Below are positions 19,615 to 31,416 of a DNA stretch of 64,000 nucleotides, one piece after another; the first letter of the stretch is position 1, and every line of letters starts with the position of its first letter. A program made the position numbers and the translations under genes. The stretch is from contig NZ_CP138214.1 of assembly GCF_034043515.1 (NCBI RefSeq), forward strand, positions 868,001 to 932,000, in the 5' to 3' direction. The notes under the pieces are model-generated. The model was not told the DNA's origin. It saw only the letters and a program-made list of their open reading frames with translations, and ran no database searches. This stretch comes from Pseudomonas sp. MUP55. Its GTDB lineage: Bacteria > Pseudomonadota > Gammaproteobacteria > Pseudomonadales > Pseudomonadaceae.

Positions 19615-20124
19615 TCATCTATTACGTGCCGTGCGAAGTTCGCCGCGTGTAGCTGCTCCCGTCAGCAGCGTGAACACCACTGCCCAAAGTAGCGCCAGCC
19701 CGGCCATCGTGGGCCCCAGGGCATAACCAAACTGCACGCCCGCCAGTTGGCTGCCTGCGTAATACGACAGCGGCCCACCGACGGCGCCCAGCAGGGCGGC
19801 GCGCCACCAGGGGCGGGCGCTCCAGGCCAGGCAGTGGCGCAACGTGGTCGCCAGCAATGCCCACAGCAGCATCAACCAGAATGGAATCAGCGGCCCCGGC
19901 TCGCTGAAGTGGAAAACTCCCAGCGTGCGCAGCAGTGTGTCCAGTACCGTGCCGGCGAGTGTCACGCTGACGATCAGCGCCCCGTCATCGGTCAGCGAAC
20001 TTATCCACAGCAGGTGAATGACCAGCACCGCCAGGCCCACCAGCAACCACGGGCCATCGCCGCCGAGCACACAGGCGAACCAGCCGCATTGAAACAGCGC
20101 GGCATTGGCCAGGGTTTTAAGCAC
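19615..20124 (-). CDS. DUF2878 integral membrane protein
   Basis: A 169-residue hydrophobic protein with about five transmembrane helices, matching the DUF2878 family (YjjA/YsxB-unrelated; no biochemical function known). It overlaps the Cfa-like gene by 8 bp and is the distal gene of the photolyase operon. DUF2878 genes commonly travel with Cfa/DUF1365/FAD-oxidoreductase genes, suggesting a membrane-lipid role. Confidence 0.8.
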   Translation of the reverse strand: MLKTLANAALFQCGWFACVLGGDGPWLLVGLAVLVIHLLWISSLTDDGALIVSVTLAGTVLDTLLRTLGVFHFSEPGPLIPFWLMLLWALLATTLRHCLAWSARPWWRAALLGAVGGPLSYYAGSQLAGVQFGYALGPTMAGLALLWAVVFTLLTGAATRGELRTARNR

Positions 20125-21388
20125 TGAAACGGCCTAGCAACGGCGGGTTGATTGCCGCCGGCTTGGCCAGCAGCAACTGCGCGGTGCCAATCGTGCGCTC
20201 CATGAAGCCGCCCTCGCAGTAGCACAGGTAGAACTCCCACAAGCGCAGGAAGTACTCGTCGTAGCCCAGCTCGGCGAGACGGCCATGGGCGCGGCGAAAG
20301 TTCTCATGCCACAGGCGCAGGGTTCGCGCGTAGTGCAGGCCGAAATCCTCCATGTGCAGCAGGTTCATATCGGTGTCGCGGCAGACGATCTGCAGCATGT
20401 TTTGCACGCTGGGCAAGGCGCCGCCGGGGAAGATGTAGCGTTGGATGAAGTCGACGCTGTTCTTGGCCTGCTCAAAGCGTTGGTCGCGGATAGTGATGGC
20501 TTGCAGCAGCATCAGGCCGTCGGGCTTGAGCAGGTGCGCGCACTGCTTGAAATACGTAGGCAGGAAGCGATGGCCCACCGCTTCGATCATTTCGATGGAC
20601 ACCAGTTTGTCGTACTCGCCGGTAAGGTCGCGGTAGTCCTGCAACAGCAATGTCACCTGATCCTGCAGGCCCAACGCCTCGATGCGCTGGGCGGTGTAGG
20701 CAAACTGCTCTTTGGACAAGGTGGTCGTGGTGACCTTGCAACCGTAATGCTGCGCCGCGTACAGCGCCATGCTGCCCCAGCCTGTGCCGATTTCCAGCAG
20801 GTGATCGCTGGGCTTGAGCGAGAGTTTCTGGCAGATGCGTTCCAGCTTGTTCAGTTGCGCCTGTTCCAGGGTGTCGTCGGCGGTCAGAAATTGCGCCGCC
20901 GAATACATCATGGTCGGGTCAAGAAACTGCTCGAACAGGTCGTTGCCCAGGTCGTAATGGGCGGCGATGTTTTTCTGCGAGCCCTTGCGCGTATTGCGGT
21001 TGAGCCAGTGCAGGCCCTGGGTGAGCGGTCGCGCCAGACGTGCCAGGCCGCCCTCCATCGCATCGAGTACGTCCAGGTTGCTGACCATCACGCGCACCAC
21101 AGCGGTCAGGTCCGGGCTGCTCCAGTAGCCGTGTATAAACGCTTCGCCGGCACCGATCGAACCGTTGGCGGCCACCAGGCCCCACACCGCCGAGTCGAGG
21201 ATCTGGATTTCCCCGAGCAGGTGCGCTTCCCGTGCGCCAAACACTTGTCGCTCGCCGTCCTCGACGATCACCAATTGGCCATGGCGCAATTGGCTGAGTT
21301 GGCGCAACACGCCCTTGCGCAGCAGCGCGGCGGTCATGCCGTTGACGTTCAGGCGATTAGCCTTGACCGATAAGCTAGGGGATTTCAT
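20117..21388 (-). CDS. Cyclopropane-fatty-acid synthase-like SAM methyltransferase
   Basis: A 423-residue SAM-dependent methyltransferase of the Cfa/mycolic-acid cyclase family acting on unsaturated acyl chains of phospholipids. The SAM site is LEIGTGWGSMALYAAQHYGC, and SIEMIEAVGHRFLPTYF is the family signature. I chose the ATG at 21388, with AAGGA 9 nt upstream. In operons of this type the enzyme can be a UfaM-like methylase rather than a true cyclopropane synthase; the sequence alone does not settle this. Confidence 0.9.
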   Translation of the reverse strand: MKSPSLSVKANRLNVNGMTAALLRKGVLRQLSQLRHGQLVIVEDGERQVFGAREAHLLGEIQILDSAVWGLVAANGSIGAGEAFIHGYWSSPDLTAVVRVMVSNLDVLDAMEGGLARLARPLTQGLHWLNRNTRKGSQKNIAAHYDLGNDLFEQFLDPTMMYSAAQFLTADDTLEQAQLNKLERICQKLSLKPSDHLLEIGTGWGSMALYAAQHYGCKVTTTTLSKEQFAYTAQRIEALGLQDQVTLLLQDYRDLTGEYDKLVSIEMIEAVGHRFLPTYFKQCAHLLKPDGLMLLQAITIRDQRFEQAKNSVDFIQRYIFPGGALPSVQNMLQIVCRDTDMNLLHMEDFGLHYARTLRLWHENFRRAHGRLAELGYDEYFLRLWEFYLCYCEGGFMERTIGTAQLLLAKPAAINPPLLGRFSA

Positions 21389-22184
21389 GGCGGCGATCCT
21401 TGGTATACCCGACTGCGGTGCTGGAGGCGCCATCGGCGGCCCGGTGGGAAAAAATCGGTGTGCGTTTGAGCAACAGGCGCAGGGCCTGCCAGTAAATCGC
21501 GAGGCAGGTCTTGGCGGTCATCCAGGGGAAGCGCCAAAGATAGCGATGCAGGCTGGCGCGGTTCAGGGCTTGCTTCTGCAAGCTCAAGGTTGCGTCGAAG
21601 ACTTTATGCGCGCCCTGCCAGTCGGCCATGTGCACGCCGAGCCTGGCGGCGGGCGGGCTGAAGCTCATGCGGTATTCCAGGTCGCGCGGCAGGAAGGGCG
21701 ACACATGGAACGCCTTGGCCACGGCAAAATGCTGATGCTCATGGGCATCCAGCGCCTGGGCCGGCAGCACATAGTGATAGCGCTCGCGCCACGGTGTGTT
21801 GGTGACTTCGCACAGGATCGCCGCCAACTGCCCGTCGGCCTCGAAACAATAGAAGAAGCTCACCGGATTGAACGCCAGGCCCCAGCTGCGGGCCTGGGTC
21901 AGCAGGCAGATAGCGCCTTGCGGCGTACGCCCAAGGGCCTTGCCGACTTCCTGGCGCACCGCGTCGCTCAAGCTCATGCCGTGGCGTGTGAATTGGCGCA
22001 GATAGTCCTGCTGGCGAAAGCCGAACGGCGCCAGGCGACTCGCGCCGGCCAGGGGCGAGAGCCCGAGTACTGCATCCTGTTCGCTGAGGTCCAGGTACAG
22101 CAGGCCGATGCGGTAGCGAAAGGCATGGGCCTTTGGCGAAAACCGACGATGGGCGATCCAGCCGCTGTACAGGGCGCTGTTCAC
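21375..22184 (-). CDS. DUF1365 family protein
   Basis: A 269-residue protein with the DUF1365 hallmarks FNPVSFFYCFEADG and FHVSPFLPRDLEYRMSF. It is conserved next to Cfa-like and FAD amine-oxidase genes in many proteobacteria and is presumed to work on lipids with them. Biochemistry is unknown. It overlaps both neighbours (4 bp with the FAD gene, 14 bp with the Cfa gene), indicating tight coupling. Confidence 0.88.
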   Translation of the reverse strand: MNSALYSGWIAHRRFSPKAHAFRYRIGLLYLDLSEQDAVLGLSPLAGASRLAPFGFRQQDYLRQFTRHGMSLSDAVRQEVGKALGRTPQGAICLLTQARSWGLAFNPVSFFYCFEADGQLAAILCEVTNTPWRERYHYVLPAQALDAHEHQHFAVAKAFHVSPFLPRDLEYRMSFSPPAARLGVHMADWQGAHKVFDATLSLQKQALNRASLHRYLWRFPWMTAKTCLAIYWQALRLLLKRTPIFSHRAADGASSTAVGYTKDRRHEIP

Positions 22185-23428
22185 AGGGTTTCCCCAAAGG
22201 CCTGGGCCACGCGCAGGGCGCTGACCACGCCGTCTTCATGGAAACCGTTGGCCCAGTAGGCGCCGCAGTAGAACGTGTTGCGCGCGCCATGCAATTCTTC
22301 CCAGCGCGCCTGTGCGGCCACCGCCGCCAGGCTGTACTGGGGATGAGCGTAGGTGTAGCGCGCCAGGATTTTCAGCGGGTTGATCATCGGCGTCTGGTTG
22401 AGGCTGACGCAAAAGGTGGTGGCGCTGTCGATGCCCTGCAGGATGTTCATGTCATAGGTGACGGCGGCTTGATGCTGCTGACTGCCGGTCAGCCGGTAAT
22501 TCCAGCTGGCCCAGGCCAGCTTGCGGTCGGGCAGCAGTCGCGTGTCGGTGTGCAGCACCACGTCGTTGTCGGCGTAGGGCAGGGCACCGAGGATTTGCTG
22601 TTCGGCATCGCTGGGGTCGTCGAGCAAGGCCAGGGCCTGGTCGCTGTGGCAGGCGAAGACCACGCGGTCGAACGTCTCGCTGCCCGCCGGGCTGTGGATA
22701 ACCACGCCGTCATCGGTGCGCTGTACTTTATGCACAGGGCAGTTGAGGCGCACTTGGTCGCGAAAGCTGCGGCTCAGCGGTTCGATGTAGCTGCTGGAAC
22801 CGCCTTCGATCACGCACCATTGCGGGCGATTGCTCACCGACAGCAGGCCGTGATTCTTGAAGAAGCGCACGAAGAACTGCAGCGGAAAGCCAAGCATGTC
22901 GGCCAGCGACATCGACCAGATCGCCGCGCCCATCGGCACGATGTAATGCTGGATAAAACGAGGCCCATAGCCGCCCGCTTTCAGATAGTCGCCAAGGGTC
23001 ATGTCCGCCTTGATGCGCTGTTCTTGCAGGTCCAGCGGCGCCTGGCGGTTGAAGCGCAGGATATCGCGCAGCATGCCCCAGAACCCGGGCGACAGGATGT
23101 TGCGGCGCTGGGCAAACAAGCTGTTGAGGTTATTGCCGTTGTATTCGAAGCCGGTGCTCTGGTCGCACACCGAAAAACTCATTTCGGTGGGTTTGAACCG
23201 CACCCCGATCTGCCCCAGCAAGCGGATGAAGTTCGGGTAGGTCCAGTCGTTGAACACGATGAAACCGGTGTCCACCGCATAGCGCTTGCCCTCGACCGTT
23301 ACGTTGGCCGTATGGGTGTGTCCGCCCAGGCAGTCACCCGCTTCGAACAGCATGATGTCGTGGCGCCGACTGAGCAGGTAGGCGCTGGTCAGCCCGGCGA
23401 TGCCGCTGCCGATAATGGCGATCTTCAC
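22181..23428 (-). CDS. FAD-dependent amine-oxidase/desaturase-like oxidoreductase
   Basis: A 415-residue flavoprotein. Dinucleotide-binding IGSGIAGLTSAYLL is at the N terminus and the second FAD element FEAGDCLGGHTHT follows. It belongs to the NAD(P)-binding amine-oxidase/phytoene-desaturase-like group found beside DUF1365 and Cfa genes. A role in oxidising or desaturating acyl chains is an inference from this context. ATGA overlap with the SDR gene upstream. Confidence 0.86.
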   Translation of the reverse strand: MKIAIIGSGIAGLTSAYLLSRRHDIMLFEAGDCLGGHTHTANVTVEGKRYAVDTGFIVFNDWTYPNFIRLLGQIGVRFKPTEMSFSVCDQSTGFEYNGNNLNSLFAQRRNILSPGFWGMLRDILRFNRQAPLDLQEQRIKADMTLGDYLKAGGYGPRFIQHYIVPMGAAIWSMSLADMLGFPLQFFVRFFKNHGLLSVSNRPQWCVIEGGSSSYIEPLSRSFRDQVRLNCPVHKVQRTDDGVVIHSPAGSETFDRVVFACHSDQALALLDDPSDAEQQILGALPYADNDVVLHTDTRLLPDRKLAWASWNYRLTGSQQHQAAVTYDMNILQGIDSATTFCVSLNQTPMINPLKILARYTYAHPQYSLAAVAAQARWEELHGARNTFYCGAYWANGFHEDGVVSALRVAQAFGETL

Positions 23429-24207
23429 AGGTCGTCCTTTTTCGGTGGCGGGCTGCGCAACATGCGTTTGCCGATGATCAGTTGTGCACGGTTAGGCAGC
23501 TTCGATAGCGGCCACAAGGTGGCGATGAACAGGGCCGGAAAGGCAATCTCCAGCGGGCGTTTTTCCAGCTTGGCGAAGATATGCCTGGCCGCCTTGTCGG
23601 CGGGCCAGCTCAGCGGCATGGGGAAGTCATTACGTTCGGTCAGGGGCGTGTCGACGAACCCTGGGCTGATCACGGTAACGTCGATGTTCTCCGGTGACAG
23701 GCCAATGCGCAGGGATTCAAACAGGTAGCGCAGCCCCGCCTTGGATGCACCGTAAGCCTCGGCGCGAGGCATGGGCAGGTAGGTCACGGCGCTGGCCACG
23801 CCAACAAGGTGCGGCGTACGTCCGGCACGCAGGAGTGGCAGCGCGGCTTCAATGCAATAGCTGCTGGCCAGCAGGTTGGTGCGCACCACGTGTTCGATGA
23901 TCGAGGCATCGAATTGCCTGGCGTCGACATATTCACAGGTGCCTGCGTTGAGGATCACTGTGTCCAGGCTGCCCCAGGTTTCGCCGATGCGTTCACCGAT
24001 CTCGCGTACGGTCTGGCTGTTGGTCAGGTCGCCTTCCACCACCAGCACCTGCCCCGGATAACGCTGGGCGAGGGCTTGCAGCGGGCCTTTGCTGCGCGAG
24101 CTGAGCGCCACGTGGGCGCCGCTGTTGAGCAGTTCCACGGCCAGCGCGGCACCGATGCCACTGCTGGCGCCGGTCAACCAATAACGACGGGGCGGTGTCA
24201 GGCTCAT
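23425..24207 (-). CDS. Short-chain dehydrogenase/reductase
   Basis: A classical SDR of 260 aa: cofactor motif TGASSGIGAALAVEL, NAG (ILNAGTCEYV) and catalytic YGASK (YxxxK). The start at 24207 overlaps the NTF2-like stop (ATGA) and has AGGAG upstream; the ATG at 24228 lacks this. The C-terminal tail has a hydrophobic segment (IAFPALFIATLWPLSKLP) that may contact the membrane. Substrate unknown; the context suggests a lipid or carbonyl product of oxidative stress. Confidence 0.88.
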   Translation of the reverse strand: MSLTPPRRYWLTGASSGIGAALAVELLNSGAHVALSSRSKGPLQALAQRYPGQVLVVEGDLTNSQTVREIGERIGETWGSLDTVILNAGTCEYVDARQFDASIIEHVVRTNLLASSYCIEAALPLLRAGRTPHLVGVASAVTYLPMPRAEAYGASKAGLRYLFESLRIGLSPENIDVTVISPGFVDTPLTERNDFPMPLSWPADKAARHIFAKLEKRPLEIAFPALFIATLWPLSKLPNRAQLIIGKRMLRSPPPKKDDL

Positions 24208-24626
24208 CCCATTCTCCTTTTCAGCCAACTGATGACGCCGCCGAGGACCGGCAGGTGTTCATAAAGCAGAGCGCCGGCATCGAAATAATCGCGATGTCGG
24301 TAGACCTTCTCGCGCCACATCAAGTGGGAACAACCGGGCACCTGGATCAGCTTGCCACTGGCCAGGCGCGGGTGACGAAAACTCATGGTCCAGCGCAGGT
24401 AGCCTTCGCCTTCGGCCGTTTGGTCGAAACCGTGGAAATCAAAGCCAAGCTGGCTGACGTTGCTGTACAGCTGCTCAAAGTAGCGATGCAGTTCAGCTAA
24501 GCCGTGGACTTCATGCAGCGGGTCGGCAAACACGATGTCGTCGCTGTACAGGCTGTCGAGCAGGTGCAGGTTGTGCCTGTCCAAGGTGGCGAAGGTGTGG
24601 CCGAAGCGGCGCAGAAAGTCACTCAT
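24204..24626 (-). CDS. NTF2/SnoaL-like protein
   Basis: A 140-residue protein of the NTF2-like fold (SDFLRRFGHTFATLDRHNL, SDDIVFADPLHEVHGLAEL). These are cone-shaped pockets used as isomerases or binding proteins. I chose the ATG at 24626, which overlaps the photolyase end by 8 bp and removes a spurious leader. Conserved in photolyase operons of pseudomonads; function unknown. Confidence 0.85.
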   Translation of the reverse strand: MSDFLRRFGHTFATLDRHNLHLLDSLYSDDIVFADPLHEVHGLAELHRYFEQLYSNVSQLGFDFHGFDQTAEGEGYLRWTMSFRHPRLASGKLIQVPGCSHLMWREKVYRHRDYFDAGALLYEHLPVLGGVISWLKRRMG

Positions 24627-26061
24627 GCTCGGCCATCTCCTGACGCGCGGGCAGGCTGCGAAACGCGGCAAGCGCGCGTTCGCGGGATTTTTTCAAGTCG
24701 ACGATGGCGCTCGGGTAATCGGCCACGCCGAACAAGCCCCCGGCTGCTTGCGGGTTGTGAACTTCCTTCTTGTTCAATGCGGCCAGCTCCGGCAGCCAGT
24801 GCTTGATGAACAAGCCTTCGCTGTCGAACTTTTCCGACTGGCTCAGCGGGCTGAAGATCCGGAAGTACGGCGCGGAATCGGTGCCGGTCGACGAACTCCA
24901 CTGCCAGCCGCCGTTATTGGCTGCCAGGTCGCCGTCGATCAGGTGGCGCATGAAGAAGCGCTCGCCCTCGCGCCAGTCGATCAGCAGGTTCTTGGTCAGG
25001 AACATCGCCACCACCATGCGCAGGCGGTTGTGCATCCAGCCGGTTTCGAGCAGTTGGCGCATGGCCGCATCGATGATCGGCAAGCCGGTGCGGGCTTGCT
25101 GCCAGGCCGCGAGATCCTTGGGCGCATCACGCCAGGCCACGGCTTCGGTTTCGGGGCGGAATGCACGATGGCGCGAGACCCGCGGGTAACCCACCAGGAT
25201 ATGTTTGTAGAATTCGCGCCACAGCAGTTCGTTGATCCAGGTGATCGTGCCGATGTCGCCGCTTTCGAATTCGCCCTGATTGGACTGCAACGCAGCGTGC
25301 AGGCACTGGCGTGGCGACACCACTCCGGCGGCAAGGTAGGCCGACAGCTGGCTGGTGCCAGGCTTGGCGGGAAAGTCGCGTTCGTCTTTGTAATAGCTGA
25401 TCTGTTCATCCGCAAAGGCGTCGAGGCGGCGGCGCGCTTCGTATTCACCGGCAGGCCAGAGTGCACGCAAGGTTTCACTGGGCGGCTCGAAGCCTTCGAC
25501 GGTAGTGGGGATGGCGTCGCTTTTCAGGTCAAGCCGGGCCTGGGCCTTCGGGCTTGCCACCAAGCGCGGCAAGGCGCTGTGCAGGCGTGTATAGCAGACC
25601 TTGCGGAACTGGCTGAACACCTGGAAGTAAGTACCGGACTTGGTCAGCACGCTGCCCGGCTGGAAAAACAGCTGGTCCAGGTAACTGTGGAAGGTTACGC
25701 CTTGGGTCTCCAGCGCCTGGGCCACCGCGCTGTCGCGACGGCTCTCATGGATACCGTATTCCTCGTTGACGTGCACCGACTCCACCTTGAGTTCGCGGCA
25801 CAGCTGGCTCAGTACGTCCGGCGTCTGGTCCCAGGTGGCGGCGTGGCGGATCAGCAGCGGGATGTTCAGCTCCCCGAGCGCCTGGCTCAGTGCTCGCAGG
25901 TTGCGCAGCCAGAAATCCACTTTGCACGGCGCGTCATCGTGAGCCAGCCATTGTTGCGGCGTGATCAGGTAAACGGCCGCGACCGGGCCTCGCTGGCTGG
26001 CGGCAGTCAGTGCGGTGTTGTCGTGAAGGCGCAGGTCGGTGCGCAGCCAGATCAAGTGCAT
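24619..26061 (-). CDS. phrB: Deoxyribodipyrimidine photolyase
   Basis: Light-driven repair of cyclobutane pyrimidine dimers. The N-terminal antenna domain starts HLIWLRTDLRLHDNTAL. The C-terminal FAD domain has TRTGLPIIDAAMRQL, GWMHNRLRMVVAMFL and the WRE...FMRHLIDGDLAANNGGWQW region with the DNA-binding tryptophans. It is 480 aa, a class I CPD photolyase. ATG directly follows the regulator's TAA. Confidence 0.97.
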   Translation of the reverse strand: MHLIWLRTDLRLHDNTALTAASQRGPVAAVYLITPQQWLAHDDAPCKVDFWLRNLRALSQALGELNIPLLIRHAATWDQTPDVLSQLCRELKVESVHVNEEYGIHESRRDSAVAQALETQGVTFHSYLDQLFFQPGSVLTKSGTYFQVFSQFRKVCYTRLHSALPRLVASPKAQARLDLKSDAIPTTVEGFEPPSETLRALWPAGEYEARRRLDAFADEQISYYKDERDFPAKPGTSQLSAYLAAGVVSPRQCLHAALQSNQGEFESGDIGTITWINELLWREFYKHILVGYPRVSRHRAFRPETEAVAWRDAPKDLAAWQQARTGLPIIDAAMRQLLETGWMHNRLRMVVAMFLTKNLLIDWREGERFFMRHLIDGDLAANNGGWQWSSSTGTDSAPYFRIFSPLSQSEKFDSEGLFIKHWLPELAALNKKEVHNPQAAGGLFGVADYPSAIVDLKKSRERALAAFRSLPARQEMAEHE

Positions 26062-26991
26062 TTACACAATTCCACGCTGGATCAATATCTGGTGGGCCGA
26101 CAACGGGTCTTCGGCGACGGACAACTCAGGGAAGTCAGTGGTTAATACGGCTAACTCGGCGTGGTGGATGCATACCGTTGGTCCGGCAATCAGCAGTGGG
26201 CAGCCCACGCCGGTCAGCAGCTTTTTCAGGGCCGGTACCTGCAGAGCCTTGCTTGAATACAACAGCACGGCGCGCGGTTGCAGGTGCTCCACCGCCAGGG
26301 CCAGCTCGCCGGCCGGCAGCGGCCAGTCAAACACCTCCACCGGGCAGTCGGCGCTGCTGGCCAGCCAGGCACTGAGCCACAGGTGCGGTTCCAGCGGTAA
26401 GTCGGAGTGGTTGACCAGCAGCAGCGGGGCGCCGTGGAGTTGGCGATTGTTGTGGTAGATTCGCGCGCCAAATTTGCTGCGCAGCCATGACAGGAAAAAT
26501 ACCCGTTCCATCTGCGCGCCGAACTGACCCTGCCATTTCTGCTCAAGCTCGCTGAGCAGCGGCAGCAACAACTGTTCGCACAGGGTGCGTGGCGGGTAGA
26601 GCGCCATGGCCTGGTTGAAGGCATCGTCGACCCGGCGTTCAGCCAGTTCGCCGATGGCATTCACCAAGGCCTGGCGCAGGGCGTGCCACTCGCTTTCCAT
26701 CGACTCGGGGTTGGCTTGGGTCGAGTCGATCAAGCCCTTGACCTGGCTGACCGGCACGCCTCGATTAAGCCAGGTGAGGATGGCGTGAATGCGTTGCACA
26801 TGTTCGGCGCTGAACAACCGATGCCCCTTGGGCGTGCGCTGGGGCACGATCAGGCCGTAACGGCGCTCCCACGCGCGCAGCGTCACGGCGTTCACGCCAG
26901 TCTGGCGCGCCACTTCGCGGATCGGCAGCCAGCCATTTTCCAGGGCCAGGGCGATGTCTTCGCCGGGTTCGTCTTGCAGGGCAGCTTTCAT
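26062..26991 (-). CDS. MerR-family regulator, class II LitR/PplR-like (light response)
   Basis: A 309-residue regulator. The N-terminal MerR helix-turn-helix (LPIREVARQTGVNAVTLRAW, RRYGLIVPQRTPKGHRLFS) is followed by a helical region and a C-terminal domain with the Rossmann-like layout of LitR/CarH. The cobalamin-binding D/E-x-H-x2-G signature is not visible. That fits class II LitR proteins such as P. putida PplR, which are controlled through a short LOV protein instead of adenosylcobalamin. It lies between DUF523 and phrB in the operon it probably represses. No LOV gene is in the window. Confidence 0.83.
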   Translation of the reverse strand: MKAALQDEPGEDIALALENGWLPIREVARQTGVNAVTLRAWERRYGLIVPQRTPKGHRLFSAEHVQRIHAILTWLNRGVPVSQVKGLIDSTQANPESMESEWHALRQALVNAIGELAERRVDDAFNQAMALYPPRTLCEQLLLPLLSELEQKWQGQFGAQMERVFFLSWLRSKFGARIYHNNRQLHGAPLLLVNHSDLPLEPHLWLSAWLASSADCPVEVFDWPLPAGELALAVEHLQPRAVLLYSSKALQVPALKKLLTGVGCPLLIAGPTVCIHHAELAVLTTDFPELSVAEDPLSAHQILIQRGIV

Positions 26992-26994
26992 GGT

Positions 26995-27954
26995 TTAGAT
27001 CGCATTACGCAGGCTGAGGTTTTCCGGGTGCGGTTGCAGGTAGGCCTGCTGCGCGATGTAGCGGTCCGGGTGCTGACGAAAATGATGCTTGAGCAGCGTG
27101 AGGGGCACCACCAGTGGCACGATGCCGTGGCGGTATTGGCCGATGACGGTTTGCATTTCCTGCTTGTCGTCGGCGCTGATCGCCTCTTTCAGGTAGCCGC
27201 TGATGTGTTGCAGCACATTGGTGTGGGTGCCGCGGGTGGCGCACTTCTTCAGACCGGTCATCAGCTCGCTGAAGTAGCCGCTGGCCAGTTCGTTGAGGTC
27301 GTCATCCTTGCCCATGGTGCCGAGCAACTGGCCAAGGCTTTTGTAGTGCACCGGGCTATGGGCCATCAGCAGGTATTTGTAGCGCGAGTGAAACGCCAGC
27401 AACCGGTGCCGCGACAGGCCTTCGGCGAGCAACTGCTGCCAACTGGCGTAGACGAATACGCGGGTGAGGAAATTTTCCCGCAAGACCGGGTCGTTCAGAC
27501 GGCCGTCCTCTTCCACCGGCAAGTTGGGGTGGCGCGCGCAGAACGCCTGGGCGTAGATACCGCGCCCACCGCCATCCACCGGTGCGCCGTTCTCACGGTA
27601 GACTTTCACGCGCTCCAGGCCACAGGACGGCGACTTCTGCATAAAGATGTAGCCGCACAGGTCGGTGTGCTCACGTGCCATGGCTTGCCCGTACTCATCC
27701 AGCGGCTGGGTCACGTTGAGTTCACGGTGTACGGTGCCCACGGCTTGTGGGTTGGCGGCGTCGCCGACCAGGCGAATGGTTTCGCGCGGAATGCCCAGGC
27801 CGATTGCGACTTCAGGGCACAGCGGCACGTAGTCGAAGTACTCGGCGAGGGTCTGGCTGCACAACAGCGATTGTTTATGTCCGCCGTTGAAACGCACGTT
27901 CTCGCCCAGCAGGCAGGCGCTGATGCCGATCTTGGGTTTCACGGAACTGGACAT
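26995..27954 (-). CDS. DUF523/DUF1722 (YbgA-like) protein
   Basis: A 319-residue two-domain protein. N-terminal DUF523 carries conserved Cys (GISACLLGENVRFNGGHK, KSPSCGLERVKVY) and C-terminal DUF1722 is YbgA-like (KYLLMAHSPVHYKSLGQLL). It is often encoded beside photolyases; in E. coli ybgA precedes phr. I place the start at 27954 (SSVKPKIGISA), downstream of the promoter; the longer frame from 28032 would run through the operator. First gene of the photolyase operon. Confidence 0.88.
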   Translation of the reverse strand: MSSSVKPKIGISACLLGENVRFNGGHKQSLLCSQTLAEYFDYVPLCPEVAIGLGIPRETIRLVGDAANPQAVGTVHRELNVTQPLDEYGQAMAREHTDLCGYIFMQKSPSCGLERVKVYRENGAPVDGGGRGIYAQAFCARHPNLPVEEDGRLNDPVLRENFLTRVFVYASWQQLLAEGLSRHRLLAFHSRYKYLLMAHSPVHYKSLGQLLGTMGKDDDLNELASGYFSELMTGLKKCATRGTHTNVLQHISGYLKEAISADDKQEMQTVIGQYRHGIVPLVVPLTLLKHHFRQHPDRYIAQQAYLQPHPENLSLRNAI

Positions 27955-27975
27955 GGCAAACCTCTGCGAAATTCC

Positions 27976-27999
27976 TGTACAGCGCTCAAATACTGTACA
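27976..27999. promoter_or_regulatory. PplR/LitR-type box 1 (TGTACA-N12-TGTACA)
   Basis: Two TGTACA half-sites 18 bp apart, lying in the 5' leader 22-45 bp upstream of the DUF523 start. It matches the direct-repeat operator T(G/A)TACA-N12-TGTA(C/T)A that I recall for P. putida PplR1. Confidence 0.75.
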
Positions 28000-28009
28000 A
28001 CTAAATCTC

Positions 28010-28037
28010 ATCATAGATTTGATCTTGTACAAGTCAA
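28010..28037 (-). promoter_or_regulatory. Sigma70 promoter of the photolyase operon
   Basis: On the minus strand TTGACT (28037-28032), 16-nt spacer, TATGAT (28015-28010). The spacer contains a TGTACA half-site of box 2, so a bound MerR-family protein would cover the promoter. Confidence 0.65.
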
Positions 28038-28049
28038 TTGTTTTGTATA
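28026..28049. promoter_or_regulatory. PplR/LitR-type box 2 (TGTACA-N12-TGTATA)
   Basis: Exact match to the same direct-repeat pattern, overlapping the -35 element and spacer of the operon promoter on the minus strand. Confidence 0.78.
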
Positions 28050-28065: not shown

Positions 28066-29294
<1,229 letters not shown>

Positions 29295-29313
29295 CTACGC
29301 CGACACCAATAGC

Positions 29314-29337
29314 TGTACAATATTGTTTTTTGGTATA
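29314..29337. promoter_or_regulatory. PplR/LitR-type box 3 (TGTACA-N12-GGTATA)
   Basis: Same spacing as boxes 1 and 2 with one mismatch (GGTATA for TGTATA). It sits 50 bp upstream of the FAD-oxidoreductase start and 140 bp upstream of the TIGR01777 start. No other feature was identified in this gap. Confidence 0.65.
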
Positions 29338-30390: not shown

Positions 30391-31416
30391 ATGACCGATC
30401 ACGCGTTGTTGCTGGTTAACCTGGGCTCGCCAAAGTCCACTTCGGTGGCCGATGTGCGCAGCTACCTCAATCAGTTTTTGATGGACCCTTATGTGATCGA
30501 TCTGCCGTGGCCGGTGCGTCGCTTGCTGGTATCGCTGATCCTGATCAAGCGCCCCGAGCAGTCGGCGCATGCCTATGCGTCCATCTGGTGGGACGAGGGC
30601 TCGCCGCTGGTGGTCCTCAGCCGTCGCCTGCAGCAGCAGATGACCGCGCAGTGGACCCAAGGCCCGGTGGAGCTGGCGATGCGCTATGGCGAGCCTTCGC
30701 TGGAAAGCGTACTGACGCGCCTGGCCGCCCAGGGCATTGAGAAAGTCACCCTGGCGCCGCTGTACCCGCAATTTGCCGACAGCACCGTGACCACGGTGAT
30801 CGAGGAAGCCCGGCGTGTGGTGCGCGACAAGAAACTGAAGGTGCAATTCTCGATCCTGCAGCCGTTCTACGATCAGCCTGAGTATCTTGATGCCCTCGCG
30901 GCCAGTGTGCGACCGCATGTAGAGCAGGACTACGACCACCTGCTGCTGAGTTTCCATGGCTTGCCGGAGCGCCACCTGACAAAGCTCGACCCAACGGGCC
31001 AGCATTGTTTCAAAGACGCCGATTGCTGCAAGAACGCGTCGCCTGAAGTGCTCGCCACCTGTTATCGCGCGCAGTGTTTCAGCGTCGCCCGCGATGTGGC
31101 CGCGCGGCTGGGGCTGCCGGACGGCAAGTGGTCGGTGGCGTTCCAGTCTCGCCTGGGCCGCGCCAAGTGGATCGAACCCTACACCGAGGCGCGCCTTGAG
31201 GCGTTGGCGCAGCAAGGCGTGAAGAAATTGCTGGTGATGTGCCCAGCGTTTGTCGCCGATTGCATCGAGACCCTGGAGGAGATTGGTGATCGCGGGCTGG
31301 AGCAGTTCCGTGAGGCAGGGGGCGAGGAGTTGGTGCTGGTGCCCTGCTTGAATGATGACCCGCAGTGGGCGGCGGCGCTTAATACCTTGTGTGAAAGGGC
31401 GCCTGTGTCACTGTAA
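30391..31416 (+). CDS. hemH: Ferrochelatase
   Basis: Inserts Fe2+ into protoporphyrin IX, the last step of protoheme synthesis. Family motifs [22 protein letters not shown] (catalytic His) and [17 protein letters not shown] are present; length 341 aa. Downstream of the TIGR01777 gene and so possibly light-controlled through box 3, which would make sense because free protoporphyrin is a photosensitiser. Confidence 0.97.

Follow-up and report, generated by a model that had tools for sequence, protein, structure and literature searches.

Gene content and organization of the operon

We analysed a stretch of 64,000 nucleotides (hereafter the window, in which all unprefixed coordinates are given) from Pseudomonas sp. 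MUP55 (assembly GCF_034043515.1, contig NZ_CP138214.1, positions 868,001 to 932,000), which carries a nine-gene operon of photolyase, lipid-modifying and regulatory genes under boxes of the type bound by LitR, a MerR-family repressor. From its gene content, gene order and promoter sequence, the operon is predicted to be a further member of the published pplR1/pmlR1 photoprotection system and not something new. What is new here are (i) the RudS and Ufa identities for the window, (ii) a conserved third box at a neighbouring renalase gene, (iii) the cassette behaviour of the lipid genes and (iv) the existence of related genomes that lack the light-sensing LOV protein.

The nine genes lie head to tail on the minus strand, from 27954 down to 19615, in the order RudS, LitR1, PhrB, NTF2/SnoaL-like protein, short-chain dehydrogenase (SDR), flavin adenine dinucleotide (FAD)-dependent oxidoreductase, DUF1365, Cfa-like and DUF2878. 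Shorter starts fit better for the NTF2-like (24626), SDR (24207) and Cfa-like (21388) genes. With these corrected starts, the junctions in transcription order measure +3 (RudS–LitR1), 0, −8, −4, −4, −4, −14 and −8 nt. The tight coupling of nine genes reported in a preliminary description of this DNA is thus borne out, with all genes present on one strand and junctions of −14 to +3 nt.

The first gene (26995..27954, minus strand), whose ATG at 27954 is the operon start, encodes a fusion of a TudS (2-thiour_desulf) domain with DUF1722, which by Pfam and residue comparison belongs to the tRNA 4-thiouridine desulfidase family (RudS). It is followed on the same strand by LitR1 (26062..26991), a class II LitR/CarH-like MerR repressor of the PplR1/PmlR1 type according to Pfam and CarH structures, and by the deoxyribodipyrimidine photolyase PhrB (24619..26061), which scores 542 bits against the NCBIfam PRK10674 cut-off of 506. 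The remaining six genes, all likewise on the minus strand, form what we call the lipid block. Three of them, namely the NTF2/SnoaL-like gene (24204..24626; Pfam SnoaL_2), the SDR gene (23425..24207; Pfam adh_short) and the final gene, DUF2878 (19615..20124; Pfam PF11086), encode proteins with no assigned role. The others encode an FAD-dependent oxidoreductase (22181..23428; Pfam Amino_oxidase) with the family and position of the methyl-branched acyl desaturase UfaD, a DUF1365 protein (21375..22184; Pfam PF07103) resembling the furan-forming UfaO, and a Cfa-like S-adenosylmethionine-dependent methyltransferase (20117..21388; Pfam CMAS) resembling the acyl C-methylase UfaM.

Promoter and LitR boxes

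A sigma70-type promoter, TTGACT-N16-TATGAT (28010..28037, minus strand), lies upstream of RudS, and its hexamers and spacing are identical to those of promoter P6650 of P. mendocina. A pattern search reveals two boxes around it on the minus strand. The first, TATACA-N12-TGTACA (28026..28049; TGTACAAGTCAATTGTTTTGTATA), overlaps the −35 hexamer (28037–28032) and extends into the beginning of the spacer; the second, TGTACA-N12-TGTACA (27976..27999; TGTACAGCGCTCAAATACTGTACA), lies between the predicted transcription start and the RudS ATG. They are the equivalents of Site 1, over the −35 of P6650, and Site 2, between transcription start and start codon (PMC9758184).

Across the 5.95 Mb genome, T(G/A)TACA-N12-TGTA(C/T)A matches exactly at four sites, two of which are the operon boxes, while the reversed control pattern has none. 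Within the window, three matches occur at no more than one mismatch (the third at 29314), compared with a mean of 0.06 and a maximum of 1 in 100 shuffles. Both boxes named in the preliminary description, TGTACA-N12-TGTACA and TGTACA-N12-TGTATA, are therefore present as exact sites, and its placement of the latter over the −35 and spacer of a sigma70 promoter agrees with the coordinates and with the hexamers of P6650.

The published counterpart has been characterized in P. mendocina, where PME6650-6610 comprises nine genes in the same order, although the paper names only some of the nine and the hypothetical genes were matched by position (PMC9758184). There, blue light induces pmlR1, phrB and ufaM by about 6- to 33-fold (Table 1 of PMC9758184), the second LitR protein PmlR2 footprints P6650 and represses it in vitro, and the lit short LOV protein PmSB-LOV relieves this repression. 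A related light operon, the pplR1 cluster, is known from P. putida (Sumi 2020, as cited in PMC9758184).

The LitR1 regulator and probable light input

LitR1 matches the Pfam MerR and B12-binding_2 families, and CarH structures align to its residues 19–174, with no Pfam match to the second B12-binding domain. In class I LitR/CarH proteins, the motifs W-x9-EH and ExHxxG hold cobalamin. Neither motif is intact in any of 61 aligned LitR1 copies, many of which retain an E-P-H remnant. Given the absent second B12-binding match and the broken motifs, we reject LitR1 as a B12-sensing class I LitR. With MerR and B12-binding_2 present and the cobalamin motifs not intact, LitR1 fits a class II LitR, and the sites present predict that it binds T(G/A)TACA-N12-TGTA(C/T)A. 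The earlier proposal of a class II protein with this consensus agrees with the published work on P. mendocina and, as cited there, on P. putida.

In the P. mendocina system, the entry point for light is a short LOV protein, a binding partner of the second LitR (PMC9758184). The MUP55 genome also encodes a second LitR (LitR2; G000:C1:4897715-4898734, where G000 is the genome of the window) and, separated from it by a single gene, a short LOV protein with 61% identity to PpSB1-LOV. By analogy with P. mendocina, this LOV protein is likely to be the light sensor. The preliminary description took the MerR protein of the operon as its regulator; that it is a class II LitR stands, but its cobalamin motifs are not intact and the light input of the characterized relative is a short LOV protein acting on a second LitR. 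The other flank of LitR2 carries putative folM/folE-like genes, as read from the open reading frames.

A conserved third box upstream of renalase and DUF2389

Upstream of the operon and in the same direction lie a renalase gene (28278..29264, minus strand) and a gene for a tryptophan-rich DUF2389 protein (28066..28281, minus strand; Pfam PF09493), whose ATG overlaps the renalase stop codon (ATGA). Renalase is a family of FAD-dependent oxidases acting on NAD(P)H isomers, and the protein in the window matches PDB 4ZCC ('Renalase') over its full length with 607 bits. A third LitR-type box, TATACC-N12-TGTACA on the minus strand (29314..29337; TGTACA-N12-GGTATA on the other strand), precedes the renalase ATG by 50–73 bp and sits between this gene and the divergently oriented DUF1731 epimerase gene and hemH. 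One of its half-sites coincides with the −35-like hexamer of a weak promoter-like element, TTGTAC-N17-TAGTCT (29292..29320, minus strand), which falls in conserved columns of the alignment. The interval 19615..28049 annotated earlier thus encloses a real operon, but leaves out both this box and the renalase–DUF2389 pair (28066–29264).

Support for the third box comes from its conservation and position, and not from the one-mismatch match alone. For the genus, one locus was read in each of 79 sampled genomes, namely the window itself, the surroundings of LitR1 in 77 genomes and, in G015, the region of rudS; some stretches end at contig ends, and site positions are taken from alignment starts. 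A site matching at least 11 of 12 positions is found in 74 of 76 divergent regions, whereas the rest of these loci (1.08 Mb) would predict 0.03 and dinucleotide shuffles give 0.1. In 72 of the 76 loci, the best site begins 68–80 bp ahead of the renalase start. Even among the 15 regions least like that of the window (54–60% identity), 14 still score 11–12 of 12. In an alignment of 57 renalase regions, the half-sites stand out against variable flanks (57 of 61 rows are included; L062, L063 and L065, with no gene pair, and L051, with a longer gap, are left out). The half-sites are also those of the P. mendocina site before the light-induced folM (PMC9758184).

At the family level, renalase is present in 45 of 59 genomes, and a box lies within 350 bp of the gene at 23 of these 45 loci (9 of 16 genera; 19 of 40 loci outside the genus). 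In P. putida, PP_0738-PP_0742 rose together in co-culture, with light not the variable (PMC11014904). Since RudS is PP_0741 (PMC11417400), PP_0742 should be on the renalase–DUF2389 side, and the joint rise leans towards renalase being part of the regulon. Taken together, it is likely from the sequence evidence that renalase belongs to the light regulon. Among the papers listed in literature searches on renalase, Pseudomonas and light, none has bacterial renalase as its subject, judged by titles and the starts of abstracts; in PMC13274461, the words operon, MerR and gene cluster are all absent.

Distribution across the genus

Among the 79 genus loci, RudS and LitR1 are each present in 78 and PhrB in all 79. 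Renalase is found in 76, as are the DUF1731 epimerase and HemH, and DUF2389 is found in 53. The six-gene lipid block (at least 45% identity) is complete in 46 loci, represented by five genes in 6, by two in 3 and by one in 5, and entirely absent from 19; it behaves as a cassette. Of operon boxes matching at least 11 of 12 positions, at least one is present in 78 of 79 loci and two in 65, mostly 49–51 bp apart. The rudS-side alignment contains 57 of 61 rows (L042, L047, L050 and L061 are left out). At least one exact TGTACA-N12-TGTAYA site occurs in 77 of the 79 genomes, compared with 8 for the reversed control.

Short LOV relatives of at least 140 bits are present in 71 of the 79 genomes, and some LOV match at E 1e-20 in 76. 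One genome (G015; L091, L202) has LitR2 and LOV, lacks LitR1 and keeps a box directly before rudS. In another, LitR2 is split between two frames (G034:C1:1989944-1990902).

Boxes also occur elsewhere in these genomes. The 19 stretches considered here were picked by eye from the matches listed, with A+T-rich spacers preferred, and were supplemented by a one-mismatch site of the MUP55 genome; they are examples and not counts. Among the matches listed, exact boxes lie (i) beside chemoreceptor genes (CHASE3-HAMP-MCP, 4HB-MCP and PAS-MCP types) in L088, L095, L087 and L094; (ii) beside genes for photolyase-related DPRP (CryB-like) proteins in L097, which was checked by profile, and L099, whose start is nearly identical; and (iii) beside NTF2/SnoaL-like genes away from LitR1 in L089, L092 (from sequence only) and L100, which are possibly relocated lipid units. 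Boxes at chemoreceptor genes would put chemotaxis receptors under light control. In the MUP55 genome, a DUF3833 gene is preceded at 55 bp by an exact box (L003:1501-1524, C1:1603189), an exact box also stands before DUF3833 in a second genome (L096), and another exact site of the MUP55 genome (G000:C1:4205515, L004) falls inside a long open frame and is probably due to chance. No telling neighbour was seen for L086, L090, L098, L101, L102 and L104, which are also among the matches listed.

Putative functions of the operon genes

RudS proteins remove 4-thiouridine (s4U) from tRNA, and cluster and catalytic residues of the P. putida protein (RudS_KT) have been tested by mutation (PMC11417400). 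The window protein keeps all seven of these residues, i.e. the three cluster cysteines, the Glu, the Arg and two Ser, at the same spacing, and the genome encodes the s4U synthase ThiI. We therefore identify the DUF523/DUF1722 protein as RudS, with a predicted function in s4U removal. This identity makes tRNA a predicted third target beside DNA and membrane. In tRNA, s4U is a near-UV chromophore that forms crosslinks (PMC11417400). The occurrence of rudS in light-responsive operons with phrB and LitR has been noted already (PMC11417400). A light-triggered coupling of DNA photorepair to membrane modification, as proposed earlier, agrees by analogy with the P. mendocina operon, but that proposal had omitted tRNA.

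The genes for the CMAS methylase, the FAD-dependent oxidoreductase and the DUF1365 protein are adjacent in the operon. In Rhodobacter sphaeroides and Rhodopseudomonas palustris, UfaM, UfaD and UfaO methylate vaccenoyl chains on phospholipids, desaturate them and close a furan ring with O2, the last step being performed by UfaO, a DUF1365 protein (PMC7380195). From family and gene order, the FAD, DUF1365 and Cfa-like genes of the window are predicted to correspond to UfaD, UfaO and UfaM. A true cyclopropane synthase was rejected for the Cfa-like protein, which scores below the curated NCBIfam cut-offs for Cfa (294.9 versus 400 bits for PRK11705; 248.4 versus 650 for CfaB). The NTF2-like, DUF1365, SDR and DUF2878 proteins had all been listed as undescribed; DUF1365 now leaves this list as a member of the UfaO family, and the other three keep their place on it.

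Renalases oxidize 1,2- and 1,6-NAD(P)H, which inhibit dehydrogenases and arise by nonspecific, including photochemical, reduction of NAD(P)+ (PMC7660482).

Proposed mechanism and its weighing

We propose a pplR1/pmlR1-type operon that class II LitR proteins are predicted to silence in darkness and a short LOV protein to release under blue light, with the conserved third box likely adding renalase–DUF2389 to the regulon; we put the probability of this reading at roughly 0.85. In the dark, LitR bound to the −35/spacer box and to the box after the transcription start would block RNA polymerase. Under blue light, the LOV protein whose gene lies one gene away from that of LitR2 would bind LitR and relieve this block. 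The targets would then be DNA dimers for PhrB, the s4U of tRNA, a near-UV chromophore, for RudS, unsaturated acyl chains for UfaM, UfaD and UfaO, which would turn them into methyl-furan fatty acids, and, for renalase, the NAD(P)H isomers left by nonspecific, including photochemical, reduction. Because the LitR1 gene lies in the operon, induction would also raise the operon's own repressor. Gene order, domains, boxes, promoter sequence, conservation and the LitR2–LOV pair are results of the present analysis, whereas light induction, footprints and LOV anti-repression were established by others in P. mendocina.

A wider reading is that LitR controls a second promoter before renalase–DUF2389, which would make up a photodamage kit with four targets (i.e. 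DNA, tRNA, membrane lipid and nicotinamide cofactor), and that the natural role of renalase is to recycle NAD(P)H isomers from light-driven, flavin- or porphyrin-sensitized reduction. We regard this as fairly probable. It supposes that light makes NAD(P)H isomers in these cells.

Several points weigh against the proposed mechanism or parts of it. Judged by consensus alone, the promoter does not exceed chance expectation (two promoter-like sites in the region compared with 1.0 in shuffles), so that the weight of this call comes from its identity to the mapped P6650. One-mismatch sites genome-wide are near background (15 compared with 7 for the control), and they are not counted as evidence except for the site at 29314, which is carried by position and conservation. 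That third box has one mismatch to the published consensus in the window, the renalase promoter-like hexamers are weak and went unreported by the consensus scan, and 22 of the 45 family renalase loci have no box, including that of G028 (L211), where renalase is on a contig other than that of LitR1. The main text of PMC9758184 names no renalase unit among the light-induced ones. The NTF2-like, SDR and DUF2878 proteins have no assigned role, and in R. sphaeroides the three operon genes besides ufaD and ufaO, which may or may not correspond to these three, are dispensable for furan fatty acids (PMC7380195). Class II LitR has been called adenosyl-B12-dependent (PMC11417400), while PMC9758184, citing P. 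putida, states that it does not need B12; the residues of LitR1 side with the latter. Finally, eight of the 79 genomes (G013, G018, G020, G026, G027, G028, G054 and G056) have neither the short LOV protein nor LitR2 while retaining LitR1 and one or more operon boxes, so that the LOV input cannot be universal.

These eight genomes lead to an alternative, in which LitR1 is itself a light or redox sensor without a LOV partner and the LitR2–LOV pair is accessory. No further LitR-like protein was found in them at E 1e-10, and a BLUF receptor as a substitute sensor was rejected, with none in the 16 genomes searched, which include all eight. ChrR scores over the cut-off in two of the eight. However, none of the 61 LitR1 copies has an intact cobalamin motif, the P. 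putida protein is cited as B12-independent (PMC9758184), and the eight genomes may simply have lost their light response. We consider this alternative unlikely; it is compatible with the LOV-released operon proposed above.

Another possibility is that the third box serves the divergent DUF1731 epimerase–hemH side and not renalase, so that light raises ferrochelatase and drains photosensitizing protoporphyrin. The box lies in a region common to both directions, hemH is found in 76 of the 79 stretches, and in 58 of 61 loci, i.e. all that have it, hemH is on the strand opposite to renalase. Position argues otherwise: the box begins 68–80 bp from the renalase start but, in the window, ends 139 bp from the start on the other side; its half-site coincides with the renalase −35-like hexamer; and a separate conserved element of the TATTTTA type, about 90–100 bp away, belongs to the other side. 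We therefore think it quite improbable that hemH is served in place of renalase. In 76 of 79 loci the ferrochelatase gene (30391–31416 in the window) is a close neighbour of the light regulon, and a link through porphyrin photosensitization is possible, with the third box far from the promoter-like element of the hemH side.

A singlet-oxygen (ChrR/sigmaE-type) or general stress operon, in which light acts only through photosensitized damage and the LitR boxes are secondary, is very unlikely: similar lipid genes do respond to singlet oxygen and to loss of chrR in R. sphaeroides (PMC7380195), MerR and ChrR relay blue light through reactive oxygen species in Vibrio cholerae (PMC5241685), and the rise of PP_0738-PP_0742 in co-culture took place under equal illumination, pointing to an input other than light (PMC11014904), but the MUP55 genome has no ChrR-family match (TIGR02451 at E 0.001, with a positive Caulobacter control), and the promoter sequence and boxes match the LOV/LitR system demonstrated in vitro (PMC9758184). 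For this genome, we accordingly set aside a ChrR regulon, and with it the link to alphaproteobacterial singlet-oxygen regulons drawn in the preliminary description. Among 14 genomes of the genus searched, two have ChrR over the cut-off and three more have weaker matches.

In brief, the proposed LOV-released, LitR-repressed operon would illustrate how a single light switch can govern responses to several kinds of photodamage in a bacterium that is not a phototroph. Through its conserved LitR-type box, bacterial renalase acquires a physiological context, which hints at the origin of its unusual substrates. The genomes without LOV and LitR2 raise the question of LitR1's own signal, in a genus with well-developed genetics.

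Comparison with known systems

The closest known system is the pmlR1 operon of P. mendocina, which shares the nine-gene order, the −35 and −10 hexamers with their spacing, the two N12-spaced boxes at the same places, and a LitR2 and short LOV gene one gene apart elsewhere in the genome. The MUP55 operon differs in belonging to a different species, in one half-site (here TGTATA), and in the renalase–DUF2389 pair with its box, which is undiscussed in the main text of PMC9758184.

Individual parts have counterparts in other systems. RudS resembles PP_0741 of P. putida (PMC11417400) in its fusion architecture and in all seven cluster and catalytic residues. The order FAD oxidoreductase–DUF1365–methylase is that of the locus tags RPA2571-2570-2569 in the Ufa pathway (PMC7380195). 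Compared with the Ufa systems of R. sphaeroides and R. palustris, however, the MUP55 operon has LitR boxes, no ChrR in the genome, and additional NTF2-like and DUF2878 genes. In V. cholerae, a MerR–phr unit and the Cfa gene VC1122 are both induced by blue light (PMC5241685), but there MerR and ChrR are two separate regulators, in contrast to a single LitR-box operon and no ChrR here. The renalase of P. phaseolicola (PDB 4ZCC; Hoag 2015, cited in PMC7660482) matches that of the window over its full length; the window gene differs in having a LitR-type box and an overlapping DUF2389 gene, whereas the account of the P. phaseolicola enzyme in PMC7660482, as far as available, describes no regulation.

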